Below, piece by piece: positions 3,945 through 27,174 of a stretch of 32,039 bases of DNA (position 1 is the first letter of the stretch; each line of letters opens with the position of its first letter). Source of the DNA: Terriglobales bacterium. Lineage in GTDB: Bacteria > Acidobacteriota > Terriglobia > Terriglobales > Acidobacteriaceae. The stretch covers positions 1-32,039 of the forward strand of contig DASSIZ010000007.1 in assembly GCA_035691485.1 (NCBI GenBank), written 5' to 3'. The position numbers and the translations under genes are program-made. The notes under the pieces are model-generated. The model was not told where the DNA came from. It saw only the letters and a program-made list of their open reading frames with translations, and searched no databases.

Positions 3945-5210
3945 GTGCGAACAGAGGCCCTTGACGTATCGGCACCGGTTTGCGCCGGCGGCAGCATCAC
4001 CTCGCGTGGCGCGGTGATGCGCAGCGCCAGCATTGCACTGGCTATCTTTGTCGCGGCATTCTGTTTGCTGTTCATCCGCATCGGCCAGCGCCGCGAGATG
4101 GTGTTCGACGAGCAGTATTACGTCGGCGCAGCGCGCGCTTTCCTGGCGCACGCTTCCGCCAGGAATGTGGAACATCCTCCGGTCGGCAAATACCTGATCG
4201 CCGCCGGCATGGGGCGGTTCGGCGATAACCCCGTGGGATGGCGGATCGCGCCGGTTCTGTGCGGCGGTTTCGCGCTGGTGGCGGTCTTCTGGTGGTGCGA
4301 GCTGTTGCTGGAGAACAGGCGCTTGGCGCTGCTCGCCGTTCTGCTCACCGCCGCCAATGGTTTCTGGTTCGTGCTGGCACGGACTGCGATGCTGGAGATA
4401 TTTGTCTTCACCTTCAGCATTTGGGCGGTGCTTGCATACACGGCTGCACTGAAGCTCCCTTGCAGCGTGTCAGTGCGGCGGGCGCTCCTGCTCGCGGCCG
4501 GCGTCTTGTTTGGATTGGCGGTAGGCTGCAAATGGAATGCGCTGGTGGGATTGGCAGTGACACAGGCGATCAGCGTCACCCTGTTGACGGTGGGCCGCAG
4601 CTCATTGGCAGGACGCAATCTCTCCTCCGCCGGCCTGGGCTGCACGTTATGCGCTTTGTGGCTGGCACCGGCGTTGATCTATGTAGCCGCGTACCTGCCG
4701 CTTTATCACGCAGCAGGCAAGCCGTTCACGCTTGCGGACATGGTGGCCATGCATCGCTGGATGGTGAACTACCACAGCCATTCCCCCGGCGACCCGGCGT
4801 TGGCGCTGCCCTGGTACCAGTGGGTGATTCGCACCGCTCCCCAGCATGCTCCCGATTACCTGGTCGGCAATATCGTAATCGTGTGGGCGGGACTTGTTGC
4901 CCTGGTGGTTTGTATTTACCGGGCGATCAGGCGCCTGGAGTTTGCCGAAATCGTGATTGTCCTGTTTTACCTGGCGAATCTGCTGGTGTGGGCGATCGCT
5001 CCCCGGCCGTTTACCTACTATTACTACTATGGTTTTGCGAGCATGTTTCTTGGTCCGATGATCGCCGCTGCCTTTCGCGGCGTGCCTGCCGTTTTTGGAA
5101 TTCGTCCCGCGTTGGTGTTGGCGCTGGCAGCGACGGTGGTGTTTCTGGGGTATTACCCAGCCATGGTGGGCTTGAATGCAGCCTGGACGTGCGTACTGGG
5201 TTGCCGCTAG
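3945..5210 (+). CDS. PMT/GT39-family membrane glycosyltransferase
   Basis: This is a 421-residue, multi-pass membrane protein. The N-terminal half carries the protein O-mannosyltransferase signature set: FDEQYY (54-59, the catalytic Asp-Glu), EHPPVGKYLIA (76-86) and GDNPVGWR (93-100). Many hydrophobic helices follow. Family members transfer a sugar from a polyprenyl-phosphate donor on the outer face of the membrane. The acceptor (protein or glycan) cannot be told. The GTG at 3945 is chosen because GGAG precedes it by about 6 bases; the ATG at 4017 has no such site. The protein is shorter than classical PMTs (over 500 residues) and ends soon after the last helices, so the C-terminal soluble region is reduced. 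It is convergent with the LuxR-type gene 44 bases downstream. Confidence 0.82.
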   Translation: MRTEALDVSAPVCAGGSITSRGAVMRSASIALAIFVAAFCLLFIRIGQRREMVFDEQYYVGAARAFLAHASARNVEHPPVGKYLIAAGMGRFGDNPVGWRIAPVLCGGFALVAVFWWCELLLENRRLALLAVLLTAANGFWFVLARTAMLEIFVFTFSIWAVLAYTAALKLPCSVSVRRALLLAAGVLFGLAVGCKWNALVGLAVTQAISVTLLTVGRSSLAGRNLSSAGLGCTLCALWLAPALIYVAAYLPLYHAAGKPFTLADMVAMHRWMVNYHSHSPGDPALALPWYQWVIRTAPQHAPDYLVGNIVIVWAGLVALVVCIYRAIRRLEFAEIVIVLFYLANLLVWAIAPRPFTYYYYYGFASMFLGPMIAAAFRGVPAVFGIRPALVLALAATVVFLGYYPAMVGLNAAWTCVLGCR

Positions 5211-5254
5211 AGCGCGGTGCTCATCCGGCGAACGAAAGAATGCCCGCCGCCGGG

Positions 5255-5893
5255 TTATCTTCCGGTCGCGGCAGCGGCTTCCGCCAGGATCCGGTGGTGG
5301 ATGGTGAAGAGCGCCAATTCCAGGCGGTCGGAGACGCCAATCTTGTCGTAGATATTGCGCAGGTAGTTCTTGATCACCTGCTCGGTGGTGCCGAGTTCGG
5401 TGGCAATATCCTTGTTCTTATATCCCTGCACAATGAGCGCCACGATGCGCAGTTCCTTGGGCGTGAGGCGGTCGCGAACGCGCGCGCCCACCATGTCGTT
5501 CTCCTGCTCCTCGGGCGCCAGCGTCTGCTGCTGGATCCAGGTTTCTCCCTGGGCGACCTTGCGCACGCACTCCAGCAATGCCGGTCCGGTGACGTTGCGA
5601 TAGACGACGCCGTGTACGCCGGAGTTGACGAACGCGTGCCCGTTCTCGCCGGTCTCGGCGAGGATGACCAGGCGGGTCTTGGTGTGCGCGGCCAGTTGGA
5701 CAAGTTCGGCGAGATTGGGAGCGAGATTCGCCGCAAAGGCGAGCACGTTAGGCCGAAATTTTTCCAGCGACATCGGAATCTGGTCCGATGACTGAACCTG
5801 CGCCACGATCCGAATTTCGTCTTCCACGCCCAGGACCTTGGCGATTCCGGCGCGGAAGATAGCCTGTTTGTCGGCCAGGACCATCTTCAGCAT
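5255..5893 (-). CDS. LuxR-family response regulator with degenerate receiver
   Basis: The 212-residue protein has an N-terminal receiver-like fold and a C-terminal LuxR/FixJ helix-turn-helix (about 143-200; LTPKELRIVALIVQGYKNKD, then VIKNYLRNIYDKIGV). The receiver is atypical. Only one acidic residue (D8) remains of the usual pair, the phosphoacceptor position aligns to A54 in NVLAFAANL, and the switch Lys is Arg (R99 in VVYRN). It is therefore unlikely to be controlled by classical Asp phosphorylation. The ATG follows the TAA of the upstream PilZ gene with no intervening base, with GGGAGG just before, so the two are translationally linked. It probably binds DNA and is regulated by protein or ligand binding (inference). 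Confidence 0.9.
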   Translation of the reverse strand: MLKMVLADKQAIFRAGIAKVLGVEDEIRIVAQVQSSDQIPMSLEKFRPNVLAFAANLAPNLAELVQLAAHTKTRLVILAETGENGHAFVNSGVHGVVYRNVTGPALLECVRKVAQGETWIQQQTLAPEEQENDMVGARVRDRLTPKELRIVALIVQGYKNKDIATELGTTEQVIKNYLRNIYDKIGVSDRLELALFTIHHRILAEAAAATGR

Positions 5894-6654: not shown

Positions 6655-7076
6655 AGCTGTACCCTCGCTTCATTGGAAATCCAAACCTTGTCGTCTTTCA
6701 GGACGCGCATCGTCCGCTCAGGAACCACGCCGTGTTCGCGCACGGAGCGGACCGCGAACAGCACGGCAAGACCGCCAATCACGGCGTAGAACACGAACAC
6801 GATCGCGAGTGCGATGGCGGGACCATACGGATTGTCGCCGAAAGCCACACTGATTGCAGCCACGATGGCGCCGGTCAGCAGCAGCCAGCTGGTGCCCAGC
6901 ATGACCAGACCGATGACGAGGACGGGCAGCGCCATCTTCCAGGCGCTGAGCTTTTCCTTCATTTCCGACTGCAGCATGGCCAGGCGGGTACTGAAAAATT
7001 CCTTCGCCTCGTCCTTCAATTCGGCAATCACCCCGGCCAGGGTGCGTCCGTTCAGGTTGATGTTGCTAGTCGCCAT
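6651..7076 (-). CDS. YqjE-like holin superfamily III (DUF1469) membrane protein
   Basis: This is a 141-residue protein with an amphipathic N-terminal helix (LKDEAKEFFSTRLAMLQSEM) and two hydrophobic hairpin helices (about 47-77 and 85-108), the layout of Phage_holin_3_6/DUF1469 proteins such as YqjE. The longer frame begins at 7100, but the ATG at 7076 has a clear GGAGGG site immediately upstream and is preferred. The start overlaps the end of the upstream gene by 11 bases, and the stop overlaps the next start by 4 bases. Despite the family name there is no phage context here; these are chromosomal inner-membrane proteins of unknown precise function. Confidence 0.85.
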   Translation of the reverse strand: MATSNINLNGRTLAGVIAELKDEAKEFFSTRLAMLQSEMKEKLSAWKMALPVLVIGLVMLGTSWLLLTGAIVAAISVAFGDNPYGPAIALAIVFVFYAVIGGLAVLFAVRSVREHGVVPERTMRVLKDDKVWISNEARVQL

Positions 7077-7515
7077 GATCCCTCCAAAATCGCAGCACAA
7101 TGCCCAGCACCACGCCGAGAATGGCAGCGCTGGCGATGAATCTCATCGGGTCCTCGCGCGCCATGAGTTCGGCTCGGGTGCGCGCGTCCGAGACCGCGCG
7201 CTGCGCTTTTTCCTTCACTTCCTCGGCCATTTCACCGGCCTTGCTGGAAAGCTCTTCCTTGGAGCGCCCCCGGATCACGGTGAAACGCTTTTTCATGTCC
7301 TGCAAGCGATCCGGCAGTTCCTTCACCTTCTCGACCGCATTGCCGACCATGTTTCCCACGCGCTCGGCAGCGCTGTTCAGCGCCAGATTGGAGCGGGTTT
7401 CCACCCTTCCTGCCGGCGTGAAGTTCGGGTGATACTGCGGCTCGTCGGTCAAAGGGCCCGGCTCCGCATAAGCCTCGAAACGCGTTTGATTGTTCGGGTA
7501 CACCCGATTTGCCAT
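7066..7515 (-). CDS. YqjD/ElaB-like (DUF883-like) tail-anchored protein
   Basis: The 149-residue protein has a hydrophilic, helix-rich middle (about 45-120) with many charged residues and possible coiled coil, then EDPMRF and a single C-terminal membrane helix (about 125-143). This matches the tail-anchored ElaB/YqjD/DUF883 layout, whose E. coli members bind ribosomes and the inner membrane in stationary phase. Starts at 7539 (GTG), 7521 and 7515 (both ATG) are possible. 7515 is chosen because the G-rich GGGGGGGAA lies at suitable spacing. It is the first gene of the overlapping trio with a YqjE-like and a DUF3618-like protein. Confidence 0.78.
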   Translation of the reverse strand: MANRVYPNNQTRFEAYAEPGPLTDEPQYHPNFTPAGRVETRSNLALNSAAERVGNMVGNAVEKVKELPDRLQDMKKRFTVIRGRSKEELSSKAGEMAEEVKEKAQRAVSDARTRAELMAREDPMRFIASAAILGVVLGIVLRFWRDHGD

Positions 7516-7718
7516 AGGCATTTCCCCCCCCACGTTCACCGGACGGTGACCGGTTTACCTAAAGGTTGGATGATGATTCCTCCGGGGATGTTGGGGGAAA
7601 AGACAGAGATGCAGCAGCTTCAGGGGCCGGAAGCATTGTTTGCGTACCGGATGCCGTGCTGGTCCAGAGATGCAGTTGGCCAGAAGCAGCTTCGCCGAGA
7701 GCGCCGGCCTAAGATTAG

Positions 7719-8081
7719 TTATGATTTGTGAGCTGCATAATCGCTTGCGCCCAGCAAGTGCAGCGAGACATAGGCCTCGCTGCCGACAACCCAACTGTCG
7801 TGGCCGGGTGCGATGTAAAAGACATCGCCAGCCTTCATTTCGACGACACGGCCATCATCCATGGCGGCGGTGGCGCGGCCCGATATGACGATTCCGACAT
7901 GCTCAATGTCGCAGCTTTTTTTCCCGAGTGCCTGGCCGACGTCGACGGACCACTTCCATCCCGGCTGGTAGGTGGCGCGGCCGATCGTCATCCCGCCGAT
8001 ATGGACAAGTTCGAACTTGCCCTTATCGAACGTGCGGACCTCGTCGGGTTTTTCGAAGCGTTTTAAAACGACGTCGAGCAT
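7719..8081 (-). CDS. Cupin domain-containing protein
   Basis: This is a 120-residue single-domain cupin. Typical cupin-like features are GWKWSVDVGQ near the centre, a His in IEHVGIVISG, and the second motif MKAGDVFYIAPGHDSWVVG with its GDxxxIxxGxxH pattern. The metal ligands of motif 1 are only partly conserved, so enzymatic activity is uncertain; it could be a small-molecule binding protein. The ATG has GGAGG directly upstream. It stands alone between the yqj-like trio and the DUF2207 gene on the same strand. Confidence 0.85.
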   Translation of the reverse strand: MLDVVLKRFEKPDEVRTFDKGKFELVHIGGMTIGRATYQPGWKWSVDVGQALGKKSCDIEHVGIVISGRATAAMDDGRVVEMKAGDVFYIAPGHDSWVVGSEAYVSLHLLGASDYAAHKS

Positions 8082-8125: not shown

Positions 8126-9874
8126 TTAGAACGCCCCGCCGCCGCCGCCGCCGAAGCCACCGCCGGAAAATCCTCCACCGCCACCGCCGCCACCCCAGCC
8201 CGAGCCGGTAGAACTGGCCCGTGGGGCTGCGACGAAAGTCTGGTGCACGGTCTGCGCCATGGTGTGCATGTTGCTGGAGAAGAACACAGGATTGAACATG
8301 CCGCTGCCGGGTGGGCCGCTATACCAACTGGGCGGTTGGGTCACAATGCCGGCGAACGCCTGCGCCCAATGGTTCTCGACGCCTAGCGCCATTGCGTAGG
8401 GCAGAAATTTCTCGAAAGTGTCGGGAGGCATGCGCTGAATGCGATCGCGATCCACGCGGTTCATGAACTCCTGGAAGCCCAGGATCTCCACCCGCGTGCG
8501 CGCCCCGAGCAAGGTCTTGCAGGTCATCTGGCGCGCGAACAGCCAGACAATGACAAGCGCAATCGCGATTGCCACCACCGTCAGCCACACCGAATCGAGC
8601 AAGTTCATGTAGCCGGTGACCTGGCCGAGTACGAACGGCGCCGCACTGATGATGGCGCCCAGCACCGAATATCCCGCCGCCGATTGCGGGTCGAGCCAGT
8701 ACATGCCCTTGCGCTTGAGGGCCGCGAAGATGTCCTGCTGGATCACGGGAATCGCCGTATAAAAGCGATTGCGCAGGCTGGACAGGTTGGTATTTTCCCC
8801 GCCCCAGAAAATGTTTTCCAGCATCACGCGCTCAAATGGCGCCAGGTCCGACCACTGCGTGTTCGGCTTCAGCAGGTGAAGAACATAATCCTTGCCGTGG
8901 AACAGCAGGCCAGGAGTTTCGATCTGCTCGATTTTGACGTAGCCGCGGACCGCCAGGTCGACCAGCGTCGAAGTGATGTCGCGGGGATCGATGCTGTCGT
9001 CCAGCAGCGTGCCCGCCTCGGCCGGCGTCATTCCTTTCGGCGGCTCGTACATGGGCGCAACCGAGATGCCCGGATTAGGGTCGCGGCCCTTGTAATACCA
9101 GAGCGTAAACATCACCAGCAGGGCCCAGAACGGAATGAACACCGCGGGATTGCCGCGCAGAAACCATCCCAGGCGCGCCAGAGCGCCGGGCTGATGCAGG
9201 ATGCCCTTGGGGATGAATACGTCTACCGTGAGCCCGCCGCGCATGGGCAGCGGGTTGTTGGTTTCGAACTCGACATGCGAGCCTCGGACTTCGGCGGTCG
9301 CCTCGCGGCTGGTCGAACCGTAAGCGCCGGTGAATGCCTGCGCGCGCAAGCTGCCGGCGGAAGCTTCGGGAAGCGAAACCAGCGCTGAGGCAGCATCAAT
9401 TGGCACCGGCCAGTCGTTGCCGGTCACGTTCCAGTAGAACTCGTCGTGATCGTCGAAATAGCGGACCGCGTTCGGCGTGCTGTAGGTGATCAAGACGATC
9501 TTGGTGGTGTCGACAGCCTCCGGGATGTAAATCTTGATCTTCTTGTAGTGTCCGTCGCGGCTGATTTCGTGCTTCAGCGGGCGTTCGTTCTCGTCCGTAA
9601 CCGATTCGACCTTGATGAACAGCGAGTAATTGGTGCCTCTCGGCCCGGGATACTCGACAGGAATGCTGCGCCAGATGCCGTTGTATTGGCCAACGAAGGA
9701 AAGGGTGATGCGTTCGCTGATGATAGCGCCGCCACGGTCATCGATGGCGATGGTGGAATGAAAGTCGGCAATACGCCAGTTGCGCGCGGAGGCGGAGGCG
9801 GCAACGCCGAAGAGAAGCAGTAGGAGCAGAGTGACGCGGGCGAGGGCGCCCGCGCTCCAACACTTCCGGTGCAT
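8126..9874 (-). CDS. DUF2207 domain membrane protein with glycine-rich tail
   Basis: The product has a signal peptide ([17 protein letters not shown]), then an exported N-terminal DUF2207 region ([33 protein letters not shown]). A membrane helix ([16 protein letters not shown]), a cytoplasmic segment and two more helices follow. The tail is almost pure glycine with Phe/Ser (8128-8210), a common ending in this family. It follows lemA, a frequent pairing. Three starts are possible: ATG 9931, overlapping the lemA stop as TGATG, and ATGs 9886 and 9874. 9874 is chosen because it gives a normal-length signal peptide. The 5' end carries two palindromic repeats, one inside the signal-peptide codons. 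Function unknown; an envelope role is inferred. Confidence 0.85.
9836..9853. repeat. Hairpin repeat GCGGGCG-AGGG-CGCCCGC inside signal-peptide codons
   Basis: GCGGGCG (9836-9842) and CGCCCGC (9847-9853) form a perfect 7-bp stem with a 4-base loop. In the minus orientation it reads GGAGCGCGGGCGCCCTCGCC. To my knowledge this resembles a dispersed palindromic motif in some soil bacterial genomes, which I could not verify here. It encodes SAGALAR of the DUF2207 signal peptide. Confidence 0.6.
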
Positions 9875-9886
9875 GGTTAGCGTCAT

Positions 9887-9905
9887 CCCCGGCGTGGCAC
9901 CGGGG
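9887..9905. repeat. REP-like palindrome at the lemA/DUF2207 junction
   Basis: CCCCGG (9887-9892) and CCGGGG (9900-9905) flank GCGTGGCA-like spacer bases in the context GTCATCCCCGGCGTGGCACC. The core looks like a repetitive extragenic palindrome. It is placed just upstream of the preferred DUF2207 start. Confidence 0.55.
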
Positions 9906-9930
9906 CTCACAGCATTTTTATCTCTCACCA

Positions 9931-10482
9931 TCAGAACTTGACGCTGGGGACTTCGCGGTCGGCCGGAGTTTCCAGTTCAAAGAACTGACGCGGCGTGAAG
10001 CCGAAGGCGCCGGCCAGCATGTTCGCCGGGAAAGTCTGGATGCGCGTGTTGTAATCGCGCACCACGGCGTTGTAATAGCGGCGCGAGTTCTGCACGTCTC
10101 CCTCGATGTCGGACAGCGATTTCTGCAGCGACATGAAGTTCTCGTTTGCCCGCAACTGCGGGTACGCCTCGGCGACTGCAAACAGGGACTTCAGCGCCAT
10201 GGTGAGTTGGCCTTCCGCCTGCGCGCGATCGGCGGGAGCGGTGGCTGACATCGCCGCCGAACGCCACTTGGCGATGTTTTCAAATGTGCTCTTTTCGTGC
10301 GCGGCATAGCCCTTGACGGTCTCGACCAGGTTGGGGATCAGGTCGTGACGGCGCTTGAGCTGCACGTCAATATCGGACCAGGCGGAGTCGGCGCGAATCT
10401 TGAGTTGCACCAGGCTGTTGTACAGGCCAATGACGATGCCGATAATGACCACCAGTACGCCAATACCGATGAACAGGCCCAT
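9931..10482 (-). CDS. LemA family protein
   Basis: This is a 183-residue LemA protein with an N-terminal membrane helix (about 3-22) followed by a helical bundle. Family-typical strings are [41 protein letters not shown] and [12 protein letters not shown]. The N-terminal helix anchors the bundle to the inner membrane. The ATG has a strong AAGGAGG site. It overlaps or abuts the DUF2207 gene downstream (stop TGA shared in TGATG), and lemA-DUF2207 linkage is widespread. The molecular function of LemA is not established. Confidence 0.95.
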
Positions 10483-10554: not shown

Positions 10555-13500
10555 TCAGTCCAGGCTGCCCACTTTTGCGTACGGCATGGCCGCCGTTCTC
10601 TCCAGCTTGTCCCAGTTGAAAGCCCGGCCGGTCATGGCGCGTTTCAGGGTCTTGATCAGCACGATGGAGAACAGCTGGCGGTAGGCGAAACGCTGCAGCC
10701 AGACGTGCAGCAGCAGCTTCATGTCCTCGCGATTGTCGGCGGTGCGGCGCTCCAGGAAGAACGCCAGCGCCGAAGCGACGAAGTCAATGATCAGGAACAT
10801 CGCGAAATAGAGGACCAGTTTTTCGAAGCTGCGGAAATCGGCGGTTTCCGGGTGAAAGTAGCGGTCGAGAAGGTACATGAACGTGCCGTAGACAAACATC
10901 AGGTCGATGAACGGCGAGACCAGCGGCAGCAGGATCTGGAAGATCACGATATTGGGCAGCGCCACCCAGCCCAGCACCCCCTTGCGACCGAACGCAGCCC
11001 GGTGCTTGTACACCGACTGCATGATGCCGAAGGACCAGCGGAAGCGCTGCCGCATCAGGCCGCGCGCGTTCATCGGCGCCTCGGTATAGGCGAGTGCCCG
11101 GTCCTCGTACTGGACGCGATAGCCGCGCCGCAGCAGTGCCATGGTGAGGTCGGCGTCTTCGGCCACGGTGTCCACATGAAACGCTCCCACTTCGCGCACT
11201 GCCGCAGTTCGCCAGGCGCCGATCGCGCCGGGAACCACGCTGACCGCGCCCAGCACGTTCAGCGCGCGGCGCTCGAAGTTCTGGCTGGTCACATATTCCA
11301 GCGCCTGCCAGCGCGTCCACCAGTTGACGCGGTTGCCAACTTTCGCGTTTCCCGCGATGGCGCCCAAGCGTGCATCCAGGAAGTGCGGCACCAGGCGCGA
11401 GATCGCATCACGCGCGATGACCGTGTCGGCGTCAATGCCGACAAAAATTTCTTCGTGCACGAACTCCAAGCCGTAGTTCAGCGCCTCGGCTTTGCCGGAA
11501 TTCGGTTTGGTGAGCAGGGTGACGCGACCGTCCCGGATCTCGTTCGCGAAGGCCTCCTGGGTCACGTCCAGAGTGCGGTCGGAAGAGCCGTCGTCGACCA
11601 CGATGACCCGCAGCTTCGGATAGTTGGAATGAAGGGCAGCACGCACCGTGCGCACAATTACCTTTTCTTCGTTGAAGGCGGGAATCACCACTGCGACCGC
11701 GGGCTTGTAAGCTTCCCCAGCCTCCAATTGCGCACCGTCGTGCTGGCGTATGCGGTCGCGAAAGCGGTCAAAGACCGCCGCCGCGCCGACCAGGAACAAC
11801 CGCGCTGACATCAGCACGTCGCCCAGGAAAAATATTATGACGATGGCCGCTCCAATGACGCCGAAGAGCCAGAACCCGAAGTGGTCGATGCGCGCCGACC
11901 AGCGCTCGTTCTTCGCAATCGGCACCATAACCTGGTTGTAGGGTTTCCCGAGCAGTTGTGAAACCGGCACGATCTCGTAACCGCGCTGGCGCAGTCCGTC
12001 AATGATCAGCGGCAGCGCCTTCACCGTTTGCGTGCGGTTGCCGCCGCCATCGTGCAGCAGAACGATGTTGCCGCAGCGCTGGTCGTCTGGATCGCAGGGC
12101 GGCAGGTGCGCCATGACTCCCTTGGCGATGTCCGCCGCCGGGGGGTCTTGCCAGTCGTGCGGATCGATCTTGTCACCGACGGTGATGTAGCCCATTTCCT
12201 GGGCGATTTCCAGCGGCCGCACCTGGTCAGCGGTGTCTGGTTCCTGGTCGATCGAGTAAGGAGGGCGGAACAGTACCGGCTTTACGCCCAGTCGCGCCGC
12301 GAAGAGGCGTTCGGCGAGGTTCAGCTCGACCCGCATATACCCCTTACGGATATTGCTGATATCGGGGTGGGTGAAAGTGTGATTGCCGATCTCGTGGCCG
12401 TCGGCGTACACCTGCTCCGCGAGGCGCGGGAATTTTTCCGCCTGCAGCCCAATCATGAAAAACGCCGCCTTGGCATTTTTCTCTTTCAGAACCTTCAGAA
12501 TTTTGGGGGTCCAGTCGGGATCAGGGCCGTCATCGAAGGTGAGCGCGATTTGCTTGGGGTTAGCGCCATACTGGTTAACCTGATAAGGCCGCGGCAGAAC
12601 GGTCATGGTTTCATCGGTGATGAGGCCGGTGGAGGAATCGAGGGTGAAGGCGCGCTCGCCGGCAGCAGGCTGGCTGCCAATGCGGACCACTTCGCCTGCG
12701 CCTTCCATGTCGACATCCTGGCCCGGCGGCACCAGCCGCAGTTCCTGCACCACGCCCACCTTGCCGGGCTGATCGAACACCGGCCACAGCGAGCGGTCCT
12801 CCGACCCCAGTCGCCACAGCGCAAACGTGTTGATGCCCAGCTTGACCGCCGCGCGCATCTGGTTGAGCGCGGTCACGCCATCGAGATACCAGACGTCGTG
12901 GCGCTTGCCCTTTTCGTCCTCGTAGGCAAAGTGCGGATTCATGCTGTCGGGATCGAAGTTGATCTTGGCTTCCGAATCGGACGCGCTCAGCCATGCTTCC
13001 TGGTTGTCAATGCTGCGCGCGCTATCGACTTTCGGCTTGCCCTTCCTCTGCTCCACCACCGACCAGTCGTAGCCATAGCTGCCGATGGCGCAGATCAGCT
13101 TTTCCTTGGGGATGACCTTCAGGGTATTGACCAGGTTCTTGGTAAACCATTCCTGCGAAGCGATCGGCCCGGGATCGCCGCCCTGGAAGTGCTCGTCGTA
13201 ATTCATCAGAATCACGCCATCGGAATGGGCGGCCAGGTAGGCATAATCGAAATCGTCGTCGTTGACCGGCACGGCGACGTGCAGTTTCATGCCCCGCGCC
13301 TGGAAATCGGAATGCAGTTCATCTACTAATTGGCGGAAGCCGGGTTGCGCCGAGCGCGGAAAGCCTTCGAAGTCGAGCGTCAGGCCCTTGTAATTGTCGC
13401 TGGAAAGAAACTGCGCAACATCACGCCGGAAGGAGGCACGCGCCTCCGGGCGGTTGAGAAACGGTTCGATGTTCGCGATCCACTGGTTGGTCGTGGGATT

Positions 13501-14040
13501 GAAGTTATTGACCAGCGGCAGGACTTCGGTTTCCGCGCTCTCGTCCTTGAGGAACTTCATCACCGGACGTTCTTTGCTGTCCGGTGTGTGCACGACGCCG
13601 TTTTTCACCACGTCATAGAGCGTCAGATCCGGGCTTACCGCCTGCATGCGGCCGTCGCCGCTGACTACGTGCAGCCACTCGGGATAAAGAATATCGATTT
13701 GCCGAACATACTCGCGCAACGACGAATACGCGGCGGCGTCCCATGTGACATAAAACGCTGCCCGCACCCCTTCGCCGGAATTCAGGACAACCTGGGTGGG
13801 CGGTTTTTTGGGCTTGGCGGCGGAAAAACGCGGGCGGGGACGTTTGCGCTCCTTTTCCTTCAGCGCTTTATACGGCCGGTGCCGCTCGGGAAGCAGCAGC
13901 GTACCGAGCGTCTCCTGCGTCAGTGCGCTGAACAGGAAAAACACTACCAGCATGGAGACGCTCAAACCCAACACGTCCATCAACCGGCGGATGCGCCTCC
14001 ACCGTTTGCGCTGCGGGTCGTAAAAGATCGGCTTCGCCAT
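10555..14040 (-). CDS. GH18-like / NodB deacetylase / GT2 fusion membrane protein
   Basis: The 1161-residue protein has three catalytic regions. A membrane helix (about 22-40) precedes a GH18-like domain (90-425) with GLTLDFEGF (D223, E225 kept; the two earlier Asp of DxxDxDxE replaced). A NodB deacetylase (495-700) has TFDDGPDPD (501-509), HTFTHP (H554, H558), FRPPY (591-595) and LLHD (661-664). A second helix (722-742) leads to a processive GT2 (780-1005) with DDGSSD, D870-A-D872, EDAD (961-964) and QRFRW (998-1002), then more helices. Expected topology: hydrolase and deacetylase outside, GT2 in the cytosol. This is like PgaB plus PgaC in one chain, suggesting synthesis and trimming of a beta-linked amino sugar polymer (inference). 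It is divergent from a GT39-like gene. Confidence 0.92.
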   Translation of the reverse strand: MAKPIFYDPQRKRWRRIRRLMDVLGLSVSMLVVFFLFSALTQETLGTLLLPERHRPYKALKEKERKRPRPRFSAAKPKKPPTQVVLNSGEGVRAAFYVTWDAAAYSSLREYVRQIDILYPEWLHVVSGDGRMQAVSPDLTLYDVVKNGVVHTPDSKERPVMKFLKDESAETEVLPLVNNFNPTTNQWIANIEPFLNRPEARASFRRDVAQFLSSDNYKGLTLDFEGFPRSAQPGFRQLVDELHSDFQARGMKLHVAVPVNDDDFDYAYLAAHSDGVILMNYDEHFQGGDPGPIASQEWFTKNLVNTLKVIPKEKLICAIGSYGYDWSVVEQRKGKPKVDSARSIDNQEAWLSASDSEAKINFDPDSMNPHFAYEDEKGKRHDVWYLDGVTALNQMRAAVKLGINTFALWRLGSEDRSLWPVFDQPGKVGVVQELRLVPPGQDVDMEGAGEVVRIGSQPAAGERAFTLDSSTGLITDETMTVLPRPYQVNQYGANPKQIALTFDDGPDPDWTPKILKVLKEKNAKAAFFMIGLQAEKFPRLAEQVYADGHEIGNHTFTHPDISNIRKGYMRVELNLAERLFAARLGVKPVLFRPPYSIDQEPDTADQVRPLEIAQEMGYITVGDKIDPHDWQDPPAADIAKGVMAHLPPCDPDDQRCGNIVLLHDGGGNRTQTVKALPLIIDGLRQRGYEIVPVSQLLGKPYNQVMVPIAKNERWSARIDHFGFWLFGVIGAAIVIIFFLGDVLMSARLFLVGAAAVFDRFRDRIRQHDGAQLEAGEAYKPAVAVVIPAFNEEKVIVRTVRAALHSNYPKLRVIVVDDGSSDRTLDVTQEAFANEIRDGRVTLLTKPNSGKAEALNYGLEFVHEEIFVGIDADTVIARDAISRLVPHFLDARLGAIAGNAKVGNRVNWWTRWQALEYVTSQNFERRALNVLGAVSVVPGAIGAWRTAAVREVGAFHVDTVAEDADLTMALLRRGYRVQYEDRALAYTEAPMNARGLMRQRFRWSFGIMQSVYKHRAAFGRKGVLGWVALPNIVIFQILLPLVSPFIDLMFVYGTFMYLLDRYFHPETADFRSFEKLVLYFAMFLIIDFVASALAFFLERRTADNREDMKLLLHVWLQRFAYRQLFSIVLIKTLKRAMTGRAFNWDKLERTAAMPYAKVGSLD

Positions 14041-14121: not shown

Positions 14122-15612
14122 GTGGCAGTGTCACTCAGGAAAGATTCTGATTATTGGATGCAGAATAGCACCAAAACGGTGGAGCATCAGGGCTTTCGCG
14201 GCCTGATATACGCGAACCACCATTGGTTTTTGGGGTTCACCGGCGGCGCGTTTGCGCTTCGCCTGTTCTTCATCCTCCGCTTCCCTTACATCACGTTTGA
14301 CGGCGTCGTGTACGGCAATCTCGCCAAGAACTGGCTGCTGCACCACGTCTACGGACTCGGCGAGGGCGGCACGATTGTTCCAACGTACATCCGGCTTCCC
14401 GGATATCCGGCATTTTTGGCGGCGTTGTGGGCGGTGTTCGGCCTGGAGCACTACAACGCCGTTCGTTTCGCGCAGGCGATCCTTGACCTTGGGACTTGCT
14501 TTGTTACCGCAGACTTGGCGCGGCGCGTGATCGGCGGCGCACCACCCGCTTCCGAGGCAGTCGCAAAATGGGCGTTCGCGCTGACAGCGCTCTGCCCGCT
14601 GCTGGCCAACTACACTGCCGTACCGTTGACGGAGACGCCGGCGATCTTCTTGGCGGCATTGGCCCTGGATTGCGCGGTAGCAGGCTTGCAATCCGACAAT
14701 GGTCATGCTCTGCGGTGGTGGGCTTTTTGCGGGCTCGCCATCGCCGCAGGCATCTACCTGCGTCCCGACGGCGGAATCATGCTGATTGCGATTGGCGGAT
14801 GCCTGCTGTTCCGGCTCGCGCTGAAGCCTGGTAAAGCGCGCACCTTTTGGGCCGGAATCGTGCTGGCGGTCTGCTCTCTCGGCCCGTTGCTGCCCTGGAC
14901 GGCGCGCAACTTCAGCGTGTTTCACCGCTTTCAGCCGCTGGCGCCGGCGCACGCAAACGCTCCGGGAGAGTTCTATGCCGCCGGTTTCGATCGCTGGATG
15001 CGCACCTGGTTCGTCGATTACGCGTCGCTGGAGGATGTAGGGTTCAGACTCGACAGCGAGGACCTTGACATCGGCCTCCTGCCGGCACGCGCCTTCGACA
15101 GCGACCAGGAACGCAACCAAACTGAAGATTTACTCAGCCGCTACAACGAAACCGACACCATGACGCCAGAACTCGACGAGCAGTTCGACGCTTTGGCTCA
15201 CCAGCACATCCAGCGCCACCCTCTCCGTTACTACGTCGAACTGCCGCTGCTCCGCGCCGCCGACCTATGGCTCCGACCGCGAGCGGAGATGTTGCCGCTC
15301 AGCGCGCACTGGTGGCGGTTCCGCGATGATCCCCGTGATTTTGCCTGGGCTTTGTTGCTGGCCGCGATCAACGCCTTTTACGTCCTGATCGGCATTGTGG
15401 GCTTATTGCGCTGGCGACAGGTGCACTACGCGGGCATGCTGGCCGCTTTTGTGCTTTTGCGCACGGTCATCATCACCGCAGTTGCCTTCCCTGAGCCGCG
15501 CTATGTGCTGGAATGTTTTCCAGCAGTGATCGTCTTGGGAGCGGCCGGTCTTGGCCTACGGCGTCAGGGGCGAGTCGCTGGAACGGAAGTTGGTCTGAAA
15601 ATGATCGAATAG
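14122..15612 (+). CDS. GT39/PMT_2-like membrane glycosyltransferase
   Basis: This is a multi-pass membrane protein of 496 residues. The N-terminal part has TFDGVVYGNLAKNW (catalytic-type Asp about 60) and YIRLPGYPAFLAALW (89-103), as in PMT_2/ArnT-like enzymes. Helices continue to about 300, followed by a periplasmic loop (EDLDIGLLPARAFD onward) and more helices near the C-terminus. The frame is open back to 13330, but that part is antisense to the GH18/NodB/GT2 gene and is not coding. GTG 14122 has GGAG five bases upstream; the ATG at 14158 has no well-placed site. Transcription diverges from the fusion gene through an 81-bp gap, suggesting co-regulation. Donor and acceptor are unknown. Confidence 0.82.
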   Translation: MAVSLRKDSDYWMQNSTKTVEHQGFRGLIYANHHWFLGFTGGAFALRLFFILRFPYITFDGVVYGNLAKNWLLHHVYGLGEGGTIVPTYIRLPGYPAFLAALWAVFGLEHYNAVRFAQAILDLGTCFVTADLARRVIGGAPPASEAVAKWAFALTALCPLLANYTAVPLTETPAIFLAALALDCAVAGLQSDNGHALRWWAFCGLAIAAGIYLRPDGGIMLIAIGGCLLFRLALKPGKARTFWAGIVLAVCSLGPLLPWTARNFSVFHRFQPLAPAHANAPGEFYAAGFDRWMRTWFVDYASLEDVGFRLDSEDLDIGLLPARAFDSDQERNQTEDLLSRYNETDTMTPELDEQFDALAHQHIQRHPLRYYVELPLLRAADLWLRPRAEMLPLSAHWWRFRDDPRDFAWALLLAAINAFYVLIGIVGLLRWRQVHYAGMLAAFVLLRTVIITAVAFPEPRYVLECFPAVIVLGAAGLGLRRQGRVAGTEVGLKMIE

Positions 15613-21808: not shown

Positions 21809-23137
21809 GTGCGTGTCGCTTTGCTTTTATTTCTGACTGTCGCCTTGGCATCAGGCACGGCAGCCCAGGATTTGGTTACGGAACCGGAACACGCTGACAT
21901 GACGAGTATGTCCGGAATGCATCAGAACATGCCCGGAATGGCTGGCATGGCTACGCCGCCGCCACCATTGATCGGTTTCGTTGAAGAACACGCCACCGGA
22001 GGCACCGATGCCGAACCCGCTTCCACGCCAATCCCGATGCTCATGACCATGAAGAGCAACTGGACGCTGATGTTGCACGGCGTGGTCTTCCTGAACGAGA
22101 TTCAGCAGAGCGGGCCGCGCGGGGCCGGCAAGCTGTTCTCGACGAATTGGGTGATGCCGATGGCGCAGCGCAAAATCGGTAAAGGTGCGATTACGCTGCG
22201 CATGATGCTCAGCCTCGAACCTGCCACCGTCACGCAACGCAGGTATCCCGAACTGTTGCAGCAGGGCGAGACCGCCTTTGGGCATCCGCTTGTCGACGGG
22301 CAGCACCCGCACGATTTCTTCATGGAACTGGCCGCCATGTACGACTACAAAGCCAGCGAGAAAACCCTGCTCTCCCTGTATGCGGCGGCAGTAGGCTCGC
22401 CCGCGCTGGGCCCCATCGCTTATCCGCATCGCGAGTCGGAGGCGGAGAACCCGCTGGCACCCTTGGGACATCACCTCCAGGATTCCACCCACATCGCCGA
22501 CGACGTGCTGACCGTCGGCGTTACTCATCGCAGCGTGCGTCTGGAGGCCTCCGGTTTTCACGGCCGCGAACCCGATGAATATCGCTGGGACGTGGATGCC
22601 GGACGCATCGACTCCTGGTCGGCGCGCCTCACCGTCAGCCCGGCGCGAAACTGGAGCGCGCAATATTCGATCGGGCAACTGCACAGCCCTGAGGCGCTGG
22701 CGCCCACCGAAGACGTGCGCCGCATGACTGCCTCGGTGACCTACAACCGCCCGTTCACGAACGGAAATTGGGCGTCAATGCTGCTGTGGGGACGAAATCA
22801 GAGCTTGTCGGATGGCAATGTCGGAAACGGCTACTTGTTGGAATCGAACTTGCAATTCATGTCGAAAAATCGCATCTGGACCCGGGTGGAGAATACGGAC
22901 CGCACCAACGACCTGCTGCTGGCGGGAAATCCTGCGCCTCCAGGTTTTTCCGAGCGCTACTTCACGCGCGTGCAGGCCTTCACCGCAGGCTACGACCGTG
23001 AGATCGGGCACTGGCAGCACCTGAGCACGGCGCTCGGCGGTCAGTTCACCCTGTACGGAGTGAGCGACTCGCTCAAGCCATTCTACGGTGCGCATCCGGC
23101 GGGCGGATTAGTGTTTCTGCGCGTGCGCCTGAAATAA
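21809..23137 (+). CDS. Putative outer-membrane protein with Met-rich N-terminus
   Basis: The product has 442 residues: a signal peptide (VALLLFLTVALASGTAAQ) and a mature N-terminus with many Met, His and Gly (MTSMSGMHQNMPGMAGM). A long beta-strand-rich body follows, with alternating hydrophobic strands and a C-terminal strand ending FLRVRLK, typical of a membrane barrel. HPHDFF near the centre is a conserved-looking motif. Such Met motifs bind Cu(I) in CopA/PcoA/CusF-type proteins, so copper handling is proposed by analogy only. GTG 21809 has GGAG at 8 bases. It follows the small Cys/His protein gene. Confidence 0.72.
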   Translation: MRVALLLFLTVALASGTAAQDLVTEPEHADMTSMSGMHQNMPGMAGMATPPPPLIGFVEEHATGGTDAEPASTPIPMLMTMKSNWTLMLHGVVFLNEIQQSGPRGAGKLFSTNWVMPMAQRKIGKGAITLRMMLSLEPATVTQRRYPELLQQGETAFGHPLVDGQHPHDFFMELAAMYDYKASEKTLLSLYAAAVGSPALGPIAYPHRESEAENPLAPLGHHLQDSTHIADDVLTVGVTHRSVRLEASGFHGREPDEYRWDVDAGRIDSWSARLTVSPARNWSAQYSIGQLHSPEALAPTEDVRRMTASVTYNRPFTNGNWASMLLWGRNQSLSDGNVGNGYLLESNLQFMSKNRIWTRVENTDRTNDLLLAGNPAPPGFSERYFTRVQAFTAGYDREIGHWQHLSTALGGQFTLYGVSDSLKPFYGAHPAGGLVFLRVRLK

Positions 23138-25609: not shown

Positions 25610-26359
25610 CTACTCGTTGAAGCTGAAGCTCATGCTCACGCCGGCGATGGCGACCACGTCGCCATCCTTGAGTTCGTGCTGGCCTGCGATCAGCGCGTCG
25701 TTAATCTTGACCTTGTATTTCTTCTCTGACGCCGCGATGTAGTACTTGCCCTCGCGATGGTTGATGACCGCTGCAACCTTGGGGGCAAACCAGCCTTTCA
25801 GCCTGATCGACGCCATGTCGCTCTTGCCCACAACAGTCAGCTTGCCGGCGAGAACGTATTCGCTTTGGTCGGTCTTGCCGGCCAGAATGCGAAAAACGCC
25901 GGTGCGTTCTTTCGCCGGAGCAGGAGCCACGGCTGCGGCTGGAGCTCCGCCTGCCGGCGTGGTCGGCTGGTGCGCCAGCATCTCTTTCGCCTTCCGGGTA
26001 TCGAGCACGACTGTGGCTTCCAGCGTCGGCACCATGGGAACGGCGAGGTCGGCGCCGGGATGGGCCGCCTCTTCGTGCCCTTTGAAGAGGACGGTGTGCT
26101 TGCCGATCAGGATCTCGTCGCCATCCTTGAGCACAACCTTGCTGATCCTCCGGTTGTTGACGAAGGTGCCGTTCAGGCTGTTGTTGTCTTCCAGCGCGTA
26201 ATGGTCCCTGTCCCAGTAGATCTTGGCGTGATGCCCGGACACGGCGAGGTTGTCCACCTGGATCAGATTGTCCGGCAACCGCCCGATCGTCACCACGCCT
26301 TGGGTGAGCGCAAACTCCTTCAAGACTGCCTGTTCAAACTTCAAATAGAGTTTTGCCAT
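25610..26359 (-). CDS. Double FHA domain protein
   Basis: The 249-residue protein has an N-terminal FHA domain (about 4-95) with the phosphothreonine-binding set G26-R27, S41-G-H-H44, and N63-G64. A Pro/Ala linker (98-150) follows, then a second FHA-like region (about 155-249; LTVVGKSDMASIRLKGW, DGDVVAIAGVSMSFSF). The second lacks the Arg, Ser and His contacts and is probably a scaffold. The ATG has GGAGGGAG upstream and lies inside the 3' end of the PP2C gene (19-base overlap). FHA plus PP2C implies Ser/Thr-phosphorylation signalling; the kinase is not in the window. Confidence 0.9.
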   Translation of the reverse strand: MAKLYLKFEQAVLKEFALTQGVVTIGRLPDNLIQVDNLAVSGHHAKIYWDRDHYALEDNNSLNGTFVNNRRISKVVLKDGDEILIGKHTVLFKGHEEAAHPGADLAVPMVPTLEATVVLDTRKAKEMLAHQPTTPAGGAPAAAVAPAPAKERTGVFRILAGKTDQSEYVLAGKLTVVGKSDMASIRLKGWFAPKVAAVINHREGKYYIAASEKKYKVKINDALIAGQHELKDGDVVAIAGVSMSFSFNE

Positions 26360-27174
26360 TCCGGACTCCCTCCGCCAAAAATCCGGCGGAATAGTTTCTT
26401 GTACCAGGGCAGCTCCTCGAAGCGGAGCAACAGCACGGTGATGTTGTCGGAGCCGCCGCCTTCGCGCGCGGCTTCCACCAGCCTGTCGGACATGAGTTGC
26501 AGGCTGGAGGTGCCCTGCAAGATTTCCTGGATCTGGTCATCCGTCACATGGCGAATCAGTCCGTCAGAGCACAGCAGCAGAATGTCCCCGGGCATGGCCA
26601 CCTGGTCGTCGAGGTCGGCCTGCACTTTGTCCTCGGGCCCAAGCGCGCGGATGATGATGTTCTGCATCTCCGATTTCTGAGCTTCTTCCATGGTCAGCAA
26701 TCCGCGGCGTACCTGCTCCATGACCAGGGAATGGTCGCGCGTGAGTTGCTGCAGGACGCCGTTGCGGAGGAGGTAGACACGGCTGTCGCCGGCGTGCCCG
26801 ATGGCGAAGAAGCTGTCGGCGACGAGCGCCGCCACAATGGTTGAGCCCATGCCCGAATGCGCCGCCTGGTGCGTGGCCGCCTCGTAAATCGCCGAATTCG
26901 CCAGGTGGATGGCGCTGCCCAGCGCCTTGGCCCGCTCCGATACGCCTTCGATTTGTTCCCCGACCGGCGGATAGGAGCCGTCCTTCGCCTCCCGGAAGTA
27001 AGTGAGAACGGTATCCACGGCAAGCTTGCTGGCAACTTCGCCGGCAGCCTGCCCGCCCATGCCGTCGCAAACAACGTAAATGCCGTAGCGGGAATCGTAG
27101 CCGAAGTTGTCTTCATTGTTCTGGCGGACGCACCCGACGTCGCTCTTCCCCGCAACTTCGACTGAGAGGCTCAT
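26341..27174 (-). CDS. PP2C-family Ser/Thr protein phosphatase
   Basis: This 277-residue protein is a stand-alone bacterial PP2C (Stp/PrpC-type). Motifs in order are RQNNEDNF (18-25), VVCDGMGGQAAGEVAS (34-49, metal-binding D37), GHAGDSRVYLLRNG, LTRDHS, LLCSDGLIRHV and SDNITVLLLRF. It has no membrane helix and should dephosphorylate Ser/Thr phosphoproteins in the cytoplasm using Mn/Mg. It overlaps the downstream FHA gene by 19 bases, so the two are made together. A Ser/Thr kinase partner is expected elsewhere. Confidence 0.96.
   Translation of the reverse strand: MSLSVEVAGKSDVGCVRQNNEDNFGYDSRYGIYVVCDGMGGQAAGEVASKLAVDTVLTYFREAKDGSYPPVGEQIEGVSERAKALGSAIHLANSAIYEAATHQAAHSGMGSTIVAALVADSFFAIGHAGDSRVYLLRNGVLQQLTRDHSLVMEQVRRGLLTMEEAQKSEMQNIIIRALGPEDKVQADLDDQVAMPGDILLLCSDGLIRHVTDDQIQEILQGTSSLQLMSDRLVEAAREGGGSDNITVLLLRFEELPWYKKLFRRIFGGGSPEWQNSI

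Follow-up and report, generated by a model that had tools for sequence, protein, structure and literature searches.

A single-chain GH18-CE4-GT2 membrane protein of Acidobacteriaceae as a candidate synthase and processor of a GlcNAc polymer

Three enzyme modules in one open reading frame

We analyzed a stretch of 32,039 nucleotides, hereafter the window, from a Terriglobales bacterium of the Acidobacteriaceae (GenBank assembly GCA_035691485.1, contig DASSIZ010000007.1). Its minus strand carries at 10555-14040 an open reading frame (ORF) that starts with ATG, encodes 1161 amino acids and has zero internal stops. Pfam places GH18 (PF00704) at residues 190-412 of the product (E 1.3e-13, 51.8 bits against a cut-off of 29.6), Polysacc_deac_1 at residues 493-597 (E 3.7e-31) and GT2 at residues 780-1005 (E 1.5e-34), the last two likewise above their curated cut-offs. 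The motifs LDFEGF, TFDDGPDPD, RPPY, EDAD and QRFRW are found at residues 222, 501, 592, 961 and 998, respectively. The original prediction, made from the DNA letters alone, had described an intact 1161-codon frame with deacetylase and glycosyltransferase motifs, and the frame, the Pfam matches and the motif positions all bear this out. The features are as follows.

10555..14040, minus strand: whole gene, 1161 amino acids, with the order transmembrane (TM) helix, GH18, linker, CE4, TM helix, GT2, TM helices
13918..13974, minus strand: first membrane helix, residues 23-41 (hydropathy peak 2.34)
12721..13788, minus strand: GH18 TIM-barrel module, residues about 85-440 (Pfam PF00704, phmmer, VIA)
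13366..13386, minus strand: GH18 catalytic segment GLTLDFE, residues 219-225, with D223 and E225 (conserved in 102/103 and 101/103 homologs)
12571..12720, minus strand: small beta linker between GH18 and CE4, residues about 441-490 (strands in the full-length model and the model of residues 74-705)
11941..12570, minus strand: NodB/PgdA-type CE4, residues about 491-700 (Pfam, conservation, Foldseek matches to peptidoglycan deacetylases)
11824..11880, minus strand: second membrane helix, residues 721-739 (hydropathy peak 2.61)
11026..11703, minus strand: GT2 catalytic domain, residues 780-1005, with D817, DAD 870-872, ED 961-962 and QRFRW (Pfam, conservation)
10762..10950, minus strand: C-terminal membrane helices, residues about 1031-1054 and 1075-1093 (hydropathy)

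The same module order in a single open frame is repeated in two congeneric species at 86-87% identity and, elsewhere, at about 32-66% identity; in a third congeneric species (84-88% identity) the gene is split over contigs. Because this order recurs in one open frame in other species, chance or an assembly artefact is excluded. At the linker between GH18 and CE4, the segment PGQDVDMEG (439-447) is invariant across the 31 sequences of alignment A1. The ratio of nonsynonymous to synonymous substitutions (dN/dS) between the window and two congeneric species was 0.07-0.11 for GH18, CE4 and GT2 (Nei-Gojobori, dS 0.8-1.0), the two values for GH18 itself being 0.07 and 0.11.

Conservation was counted over 103 homologs, obtained by dereplicating 148 full-length rows at 90% identity with partial rows at contig ends excluded. 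The five CE4 motifs are all present (TFDDG, HTFTHP for HxxxH, RPPY, DxxDW and LLHD), and D503, D504, H554, H558, R592 and D629 are each found in 103/103 homologs. The same holds for D817, D870, D872, E961, D962, Q998, R1001 and W1002 of GT2, and the 148-row counts agree for both modules. The D, DxD, ED and QxxRW motifs and the membrane helices that mark a processive GT2 synthase are present as well. With Pfam matches over cut-off and conserved active sites throughout, three enzyme modules are complete on one chain, as had been anticipated. The three-module protein is real and conserved, its three predicted active sites are near-invariant, and it is probably fully active.

The GH18 site and the membrane arrangement

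The catalytic D-x-E at the end of strand 4 and the Tyr and Asp of the MxYD motif are present and conserved in the window protein; in the dereplicated homologs, D223 is kept in 102/103, E225 in 101/103, Y281 in 103/103 and D282 in 101/103. The GH18 module had been described at the outset as having two Asp of its site replaced. The replacements in the DxxDxDxE signature are real (K218 and T221), but they are no sign of an impaired site, as both columns vary family-wide. The T221 column in the 103 homologs holds Met in 48, Ser in 18, Thr in 11, Asn in 8, Cys in 8 and Val in 7, and alignments to solved relatives place Thr there in YdhD (3cz8) and Asn in the Chromobacterium chitinase 5jh8. Since these columns vary while the catalytic Glu and its neighbouring Asp are intact, the pattern is that of an ordinary, YdhD-like branch. 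We rejected the idea of a GH18 dead through the two replaced Asp for the window protein, in which D223, E225, Y281 and D282 are all intact. This module is the sole PF00704 match in its own genome, which is 98.5% complete.

The best solved sequence match of the GH18 module is Bacillus subtilis YdhD (3cz8; phmmer E 1.6e-27). A model of residues 74-705 built on 36 sequences was confident (predicted local distance difference test, pLDDT, 86.3; predicted template modelling score, pTM, 0.78). In VIA, its GH18 part matched the chitinase 5jh8 with a Z of 34.0 and a root-mean-square deviation of 2.3 over 306 residues, and SleL with a Z of 32.8 and a deviation of 2.8 over 309 residues; the VIA list was taken up by GH18 chains, so that the remaining parts of the model were barely probed there. 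Foldseek matched the same model to GH18 chitinases and SleL and to CE4 peptidoglycan deacetylases. Profile and modelled fold together confirm a true GH18 fold, and the original prediction, which had chosen to stand or fall with a glycosidase fold in this region, stands on that point. YdhD, SleL (YaaH) and class V chitinases share with the module the GH18 fold and the catalytic D-x-E, and YdhD also has the Thr at the second Asp. They differ in that the listed solved chains, some of which are parts of longer proteins, carry no synthase.

The GH18 site has decayed in two lineages. Both sampled genomes of the Acidobacteriota genus g52 are affected, with E225Q in one (G185, locus L188) and D223G, E225Q and D282G in the other (G325, L125/L189), which makes their GH18 an apparent pseudoenzyme in a retained module. 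At 5/5 Rhodobacterales loci examined (L130, L190, L191, L192 and L193; nine plasmid records exist) substitutions have removed both the Glu and the Asp of MxYD, and the three proteins scanned of these five gave no match to PF00704. The later-fetched rows L188 and L190-L193 are outside both the 103 and the 148, and L189 and L125 denote one gene, which is counted there under L125. That the module has outlived its chemistry there speaks for a further role in these two lineages, in binding or in structure. One could extend this to the family and suppose that GH18 mainly binds or guides the polymer, catalysis being secondary, since the module is kept without its site in both g52 genomes and all five Rhodobacterales loci. 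The near-invariance of D223 and E225 in the dereplicated homologs, the window protein among them, and the low dN/dS speak against such an extension, and we consider it very unlikely. A DUF3131 gene lies directly downstream of the synthase in 5/5 Rhodobacterales loci examined; its product may have replaced the decayed GH18 as hydrolase.

Membrane helices were called from a sliding Kyte-Doolittle average, with no trained topology predictor. The first-helix region is hydrophobic in 100 of the 101 homologs with residues there (2/103 rows are missing). The second reaches the hydropathy threshold in 90/103 and the two C-terminal regions in 100/103 and 101/103, respectively; three control regions do so in 0, 0 and 4 of 103. 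Because one helix precedes GH18 and one lies between CE4 and GT2, GH18 and CE4 are predicted to share a face opposite GT2, in line with the earlier proposal that the domains lie on opposite membrane faces. GT2 synthases use cytosolic UDP-sugars, so the GH18/CE4 face should be the periplasm and GT2 should be cytoplasmic.

Relatives, distribution and genomic context

Against the fetched references, the highest BLAST scores of the GT2 domain were to a stand-alone Deinococcus GT2 (233 bits), MatB-like proteins (226, 209 and 209) and a haloarchaeal GT2 (201), followed by Escherichia coli PgaC (142), a Levilactobacillus GT2 (141) and other PgaC (136 and 134); NodC (110 and 102), IcaA (99) and BcsA (58) were lower. 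The best NCBIfam model on GT2 was PgaC_IcaA with 188 bits, NodC being behind with 100. In a GT2 tree of 40 rows, a split supported at 96/97 sets NodC and BcsA apart from a side that holds PgaC/IcaA along with the trifunctional and MatB-like sequences. On that side, the MatB-like proteins and PgaC form groups that emerge, with weak support, among the trifunctional ones. We dropped the idea that a MatB-like protein gained GH18, as the tree, if anything, nests MatB-like inside trifunctional sequences (92/93, 94/92, not starred). With respect to the MatB layout, loss of GH18 appears as possible as its gain.

For CE4, BLAST against the fetched references gave 41%, 40% and 37% identity to MatB-like proteins and 37% and 36% to NodB over about 210 residues, a motif alignment of just ten residues to PgaB and no alignment to IcaB. 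The MatB-like proteins, encoded on Streptomyces and Kocuria plasmids, are thus related in both domains (CE4 37-41%, GT2 37-38% identical) and have CE4, a TM helix and GT2 in this order on one chain; the window protein differs by an added N-terminal membrane helix and GH18 ahead of CE4. MatB is described as having an intracellular GT2 and an extracellular CE4 with a TM helix between them, and MatAB makes poly-N-acetylglucosamine (PNAG) in Streptomyces, as indicated by monoclonal antibody F598, sensitivity to dispersin B and mutant evidence (PMC5972031). Functionally, the window protein is a relative of MatB, its nearest characterised counterpart.

The comparison with PgaB and PgaC of E. coli, from which the original prediction had started, holds as a functional analogy; no sequence kinship is seen for the hydrolase (GH18 as opposed to GH153) or for CE4. 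The same three activities are predicted, namely a GT2 synthase, a CE4 deacetylase and a hydrolase. In E. coli they reside on separate proteins, and the PgaB hydrolase, GH153 (PF14883), sits C-terminal to its CE4. PF14883 was found in E. coli PgaB and is not among the 8 Pfam families of the window protein; a search of 41 genomes (its own and 40 relatives) gave no match to it, the E. coli positive control having worked. Kinship of hydrolase and deacetylase with PgaB was therefore rejected at the sequence level by Pfam and BLAST. The PgaB hydrolase of E. coli and Bordetella cuts deacetylated PNAG (PMC5933820). The icaB-like fusions of Gram-negative bacteria described in PMC7112194 also carry a deacetylase, mostly with a glycosyltransferase, in operons without detectable pgaA; they differ by an N-terminal glycosyltransferase and by lacking the PgaB-type hydrolase.

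These relationships also bear on an alternative in which the polymer is beta-1,4 linked, that is, a chitin-type chain converted to chitosan by CE4 and cut by a chitinase-type GH18, so that the protein would be a one-chain analogue of NodC and NodB with a chitinase. In favour of it, CE4 shares 36-37% identity with NodB over some 210 residues and lacks a real match to PgaB or IcaB; chitinases and SleL/YdhD are the structures nearest to GH18; GT2 matches NodC with a higher score than IcaA; and the CE4 relatives act on beta-1,4 N-acetylglucosamine (GlcNAc) according to PMC5972031. NodB and NodC themselves (GT2 31-33% identical) are separate proteins, and they come with no hydrolase. Set against this alternative, E. 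coli PgaC and the MatB-like proteins outscore NodC as matches of GT2, and the tree splits NodC off; MatB, moreover, makes PNAG although its authors assign it the same type of CE4 (PMC5972031). GT2 thus leans to the PgaC/MatB-like beta-1,6 linkage, and GH18 and CE4 suggest a beta-1,4, chitosan-like one. We regard a beta-1,4 product as a serious possibility, though one with the odds against it.

In a sample of 297 Acidobacteriota genomes drawn across the phylum, the window's own included, 54 match the protein at E 1e-60 or better; 51 of them hold the whole or nearly whole chain (counting one row with an internal stop and one match in two pieces of one frame), 1 is cut by a contig end and 2 have GT2 only. 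A scan of species genomes with patterns specific to the window protein gave 70 loci, all in records titled as Acidobacteriota groups, some of which repeat the same genomes or are cut by contig ends. Among plasmid records 303 match, and 22 of these cover 80% or more of the chain in a single place. Nine of the 22 are from Rhodobacterales and the others from sphingomonads, a Deinococcus and Prevotella nigrescens; none is from Actinobacteria. The protein is named in 20 of these 22, in 19 just as "glycosyltransferase" or "glycosyl transferase family 2". Pfam confirmed GH18, CE4 and GT2 in the scanned sphingomonad, Deinococcus and Prevotella proteins. Three Actinobacteria plasmid records have CE4 and GT2 alone, which is the layout of Streptomyces MatB; PF00704 gave no match in the Kocuria protein, and BLAST found no GH18 match in the three references. 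As a side observation, a GH18-like "chitinase" gene (L131:8023-9009; 22.9 bits, under the Pfam cut-off) adjoins the Kocuria CE4-GT2 fusion on the opposite strand.

The layout has appeared in print. Table 4 of PMC3413522 (2012) lists "GH18-CE4-GT2" for ZP_09465738 of the Gram-positive Acetivibrio cellulolyticus among non-cellulosomal multifunctional proteins, and that row discusses no function; by it, the Acetivibrio protein has the same modules in the same order on one chain. Word searches of open-licence PMC found no functional account of the layout, although further mentions are possible. The layout is therefore not peculiar to the window genome but spans several phyla, its spread outside Acidobacteriota resting on plasmids plus this published row, and the window protein is a further member of a layout already in print without function. 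We dropped GH18 as a mark of outer-membrane bacteria: the plasmid sample agreed with it, but Acetivibrio is listed as Gram-positive (PMC3413522), and PMC7112194 describes deacetylase-hydrolase PgaB sequences in Lachnoclostridium and Kitasatospora, both Gram-positive, as well as clades of Gram-negatives that lack the hydrolase.

The persistence of the layout also bears on whether the modules share a pathway. GH18 and CE4 could remodel peptidoglycan, as SleL, YdhD and PgdA do, while GT2 makes an unrelated glycan in a fusion of convenience; the closest solved relatives do include spore cortex SleL/YdhD for GH18 and peptidoglycan deacetylases for CE4. The domain order is kept in several phyla and in 51/297 Acidobacteriota genomes, however, and the CE4-GT2 pair on the MatB chain serves one pathway (PMC5972031), which leaves a peptidoglycan role highly improbable.

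Upstream of the gene lies a divergent PMT_2-type (ArnT-like) glycosyltransferase gene at about 14150-15612 on the plus strand (start approximate), and such a gene is directly upstream in 69 of the 94 dereplicated loci whose upstream sequence extends for 1.4 kb or more. ORF clustering over 87 loci that span 12 kb or more, without dereplication, detected no conserved exporter beside the synthase; its one common cluster, of 57 loci, is the PMT_2-type place, and the other clusters, whose representatives were not searched against families, comprise at most 33 loci each. LemA and DUF2207 genes (8126-10482, minus strand) start 72 bases downstream on the same strand. They were rejected as general partners: of 149 loci whose downstream sequence extends for 1 kb or more, 6 have them there on the same strand, and these are the locus of the window and those of three relatives from its genus, two of which were seen twice. 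Another three loci have LemA and DUF2207 6-10 kb away on the opposite strand. Three of three sphingomonad loci (L127, L134, L194) have MprF, AcvB/VirJ and a sensor kinase/response regulator pair within their 6-8 kb flanks, which hints at control of surface charge there. MprF was rejected as a general partner, as PF09924 is unmatched in the window's own genome. Elsewhere in the window, putative ORFs of more than 300 amino acids at 4238-5791, 6814-7731, 21809-23137 and 25757-26680, all on the plus strand, had no Pfam match at E 0.001.

A proposed route to a deacetylated polymer

The window protein most likely makes, deacetylates and trims a GlcNAc polymer. We propose that it is a single-chain inner-membrane synthase and processor of a GlcNAc homopolymer, with a PNAG-like product modestly favoured; our rough probability for this reading is one half. 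The analysis establishes the folds of the three domains, their conserved active sites, their order and the kinship with MatB-like proteins, whereas sidedness, the polymer and its linkage, the order of reactions, export and the action of GH18 on its own chain's product are inferred. GT2 and its membrane helices would polymerize UDP-GlcNAc and thread the chain outward, like PgaC/IcaA, MatB and the hyaluronan and cellulose synthases. CE4, tethered in the periplasm, would strip acetyl groups to leave a cationic chain, and GH18, ahead of CE4 on the protein, would cut the polymer at sites still acetylated. GH18 catalysis uses the N-acetyl group of the substrate itself as nucleophile, so GH18 is expected to cut where CE4 has not acted; deacetylation would therefore protect the chain and set its length. 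As the PgaB hydrolase family is unmatched in the 41 genomes, GH18 may do PgaB's trimming. The modest preference for PNAG comes from MatB, whose authors remark on the same CE4-GT2 mismatch in a protein whose product is still PNAG (PMC5972031).

Several points weigh against this proposal. The references called "MatB-like" here stand in for MatB; they are proteins encoded on plasmids of Kocuria and Streptomyces that share its layout. We know of no product for any trifunctional protein. Known relatives of GH18 and of this type of CE4 act on beta-1,4 GlcNAc, which fits a beta-1,6 PNAG poorly. GT2 misses the cut-off of the PgaC_IcaA equivalog TIGR03937 (188.2 of 422.3 bits), as it does that of the NodC equivalog TIGR04242 (100.1 of 550 bits). 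IcaA, a true PNAG synthase, scores below NodC (99 against 110 and 102 bits), and linkage is therefore poorly read from the GT2 BLAST scores. The BcsA branch of the tree exceeds 9 changes per column, long branches meet and 12/36 inner branches are open. Charges fail to settle sidedness, with 8 Lys/Arg before the first helix and 13 after it. The full-length model, whose Foldseek matches also include hyaluronan and cellulose synthases, is weak (pLDDT 65.2, pTM 0.44) and was used for domain matches alone. Finally, export across the outer membrane is left unexplained, because PgaA was over cut-off in 0/41 genomes; matches below cut-off occurred in 41/41 and also in 12/14 control genomes, and the listed ones span short parts of the 800-position model and are uninformative.

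On a bolder reading, the protein could be seen as a third self-contained PNAG/chitosan machine, in which GH18 on a MatB-type synthase-deacetylase fills the role of GH153 and a trimming hydrolase was recruited at least twice. We put this forward tentatively and consider it doubtful. With PNAG as the product, GH18 would in addition hydrolyse beta-1,6-linked GlcNAc, which members of this family are not known to do.

If the proposed function is true, a single gene gives many soil, plant-associated and oral bacteria the means to make a deacetylated amino-sugar polymer, and searches for pgaABCD or icaADBC would miss such one-gene systems. A one-gene system is easy to express, which makes both the linkage and the purpose of a PNAG-type trimming hydrolase directly testable, and the two lineages in which the GH18 site was lost naturally provide ready-made comparisons.

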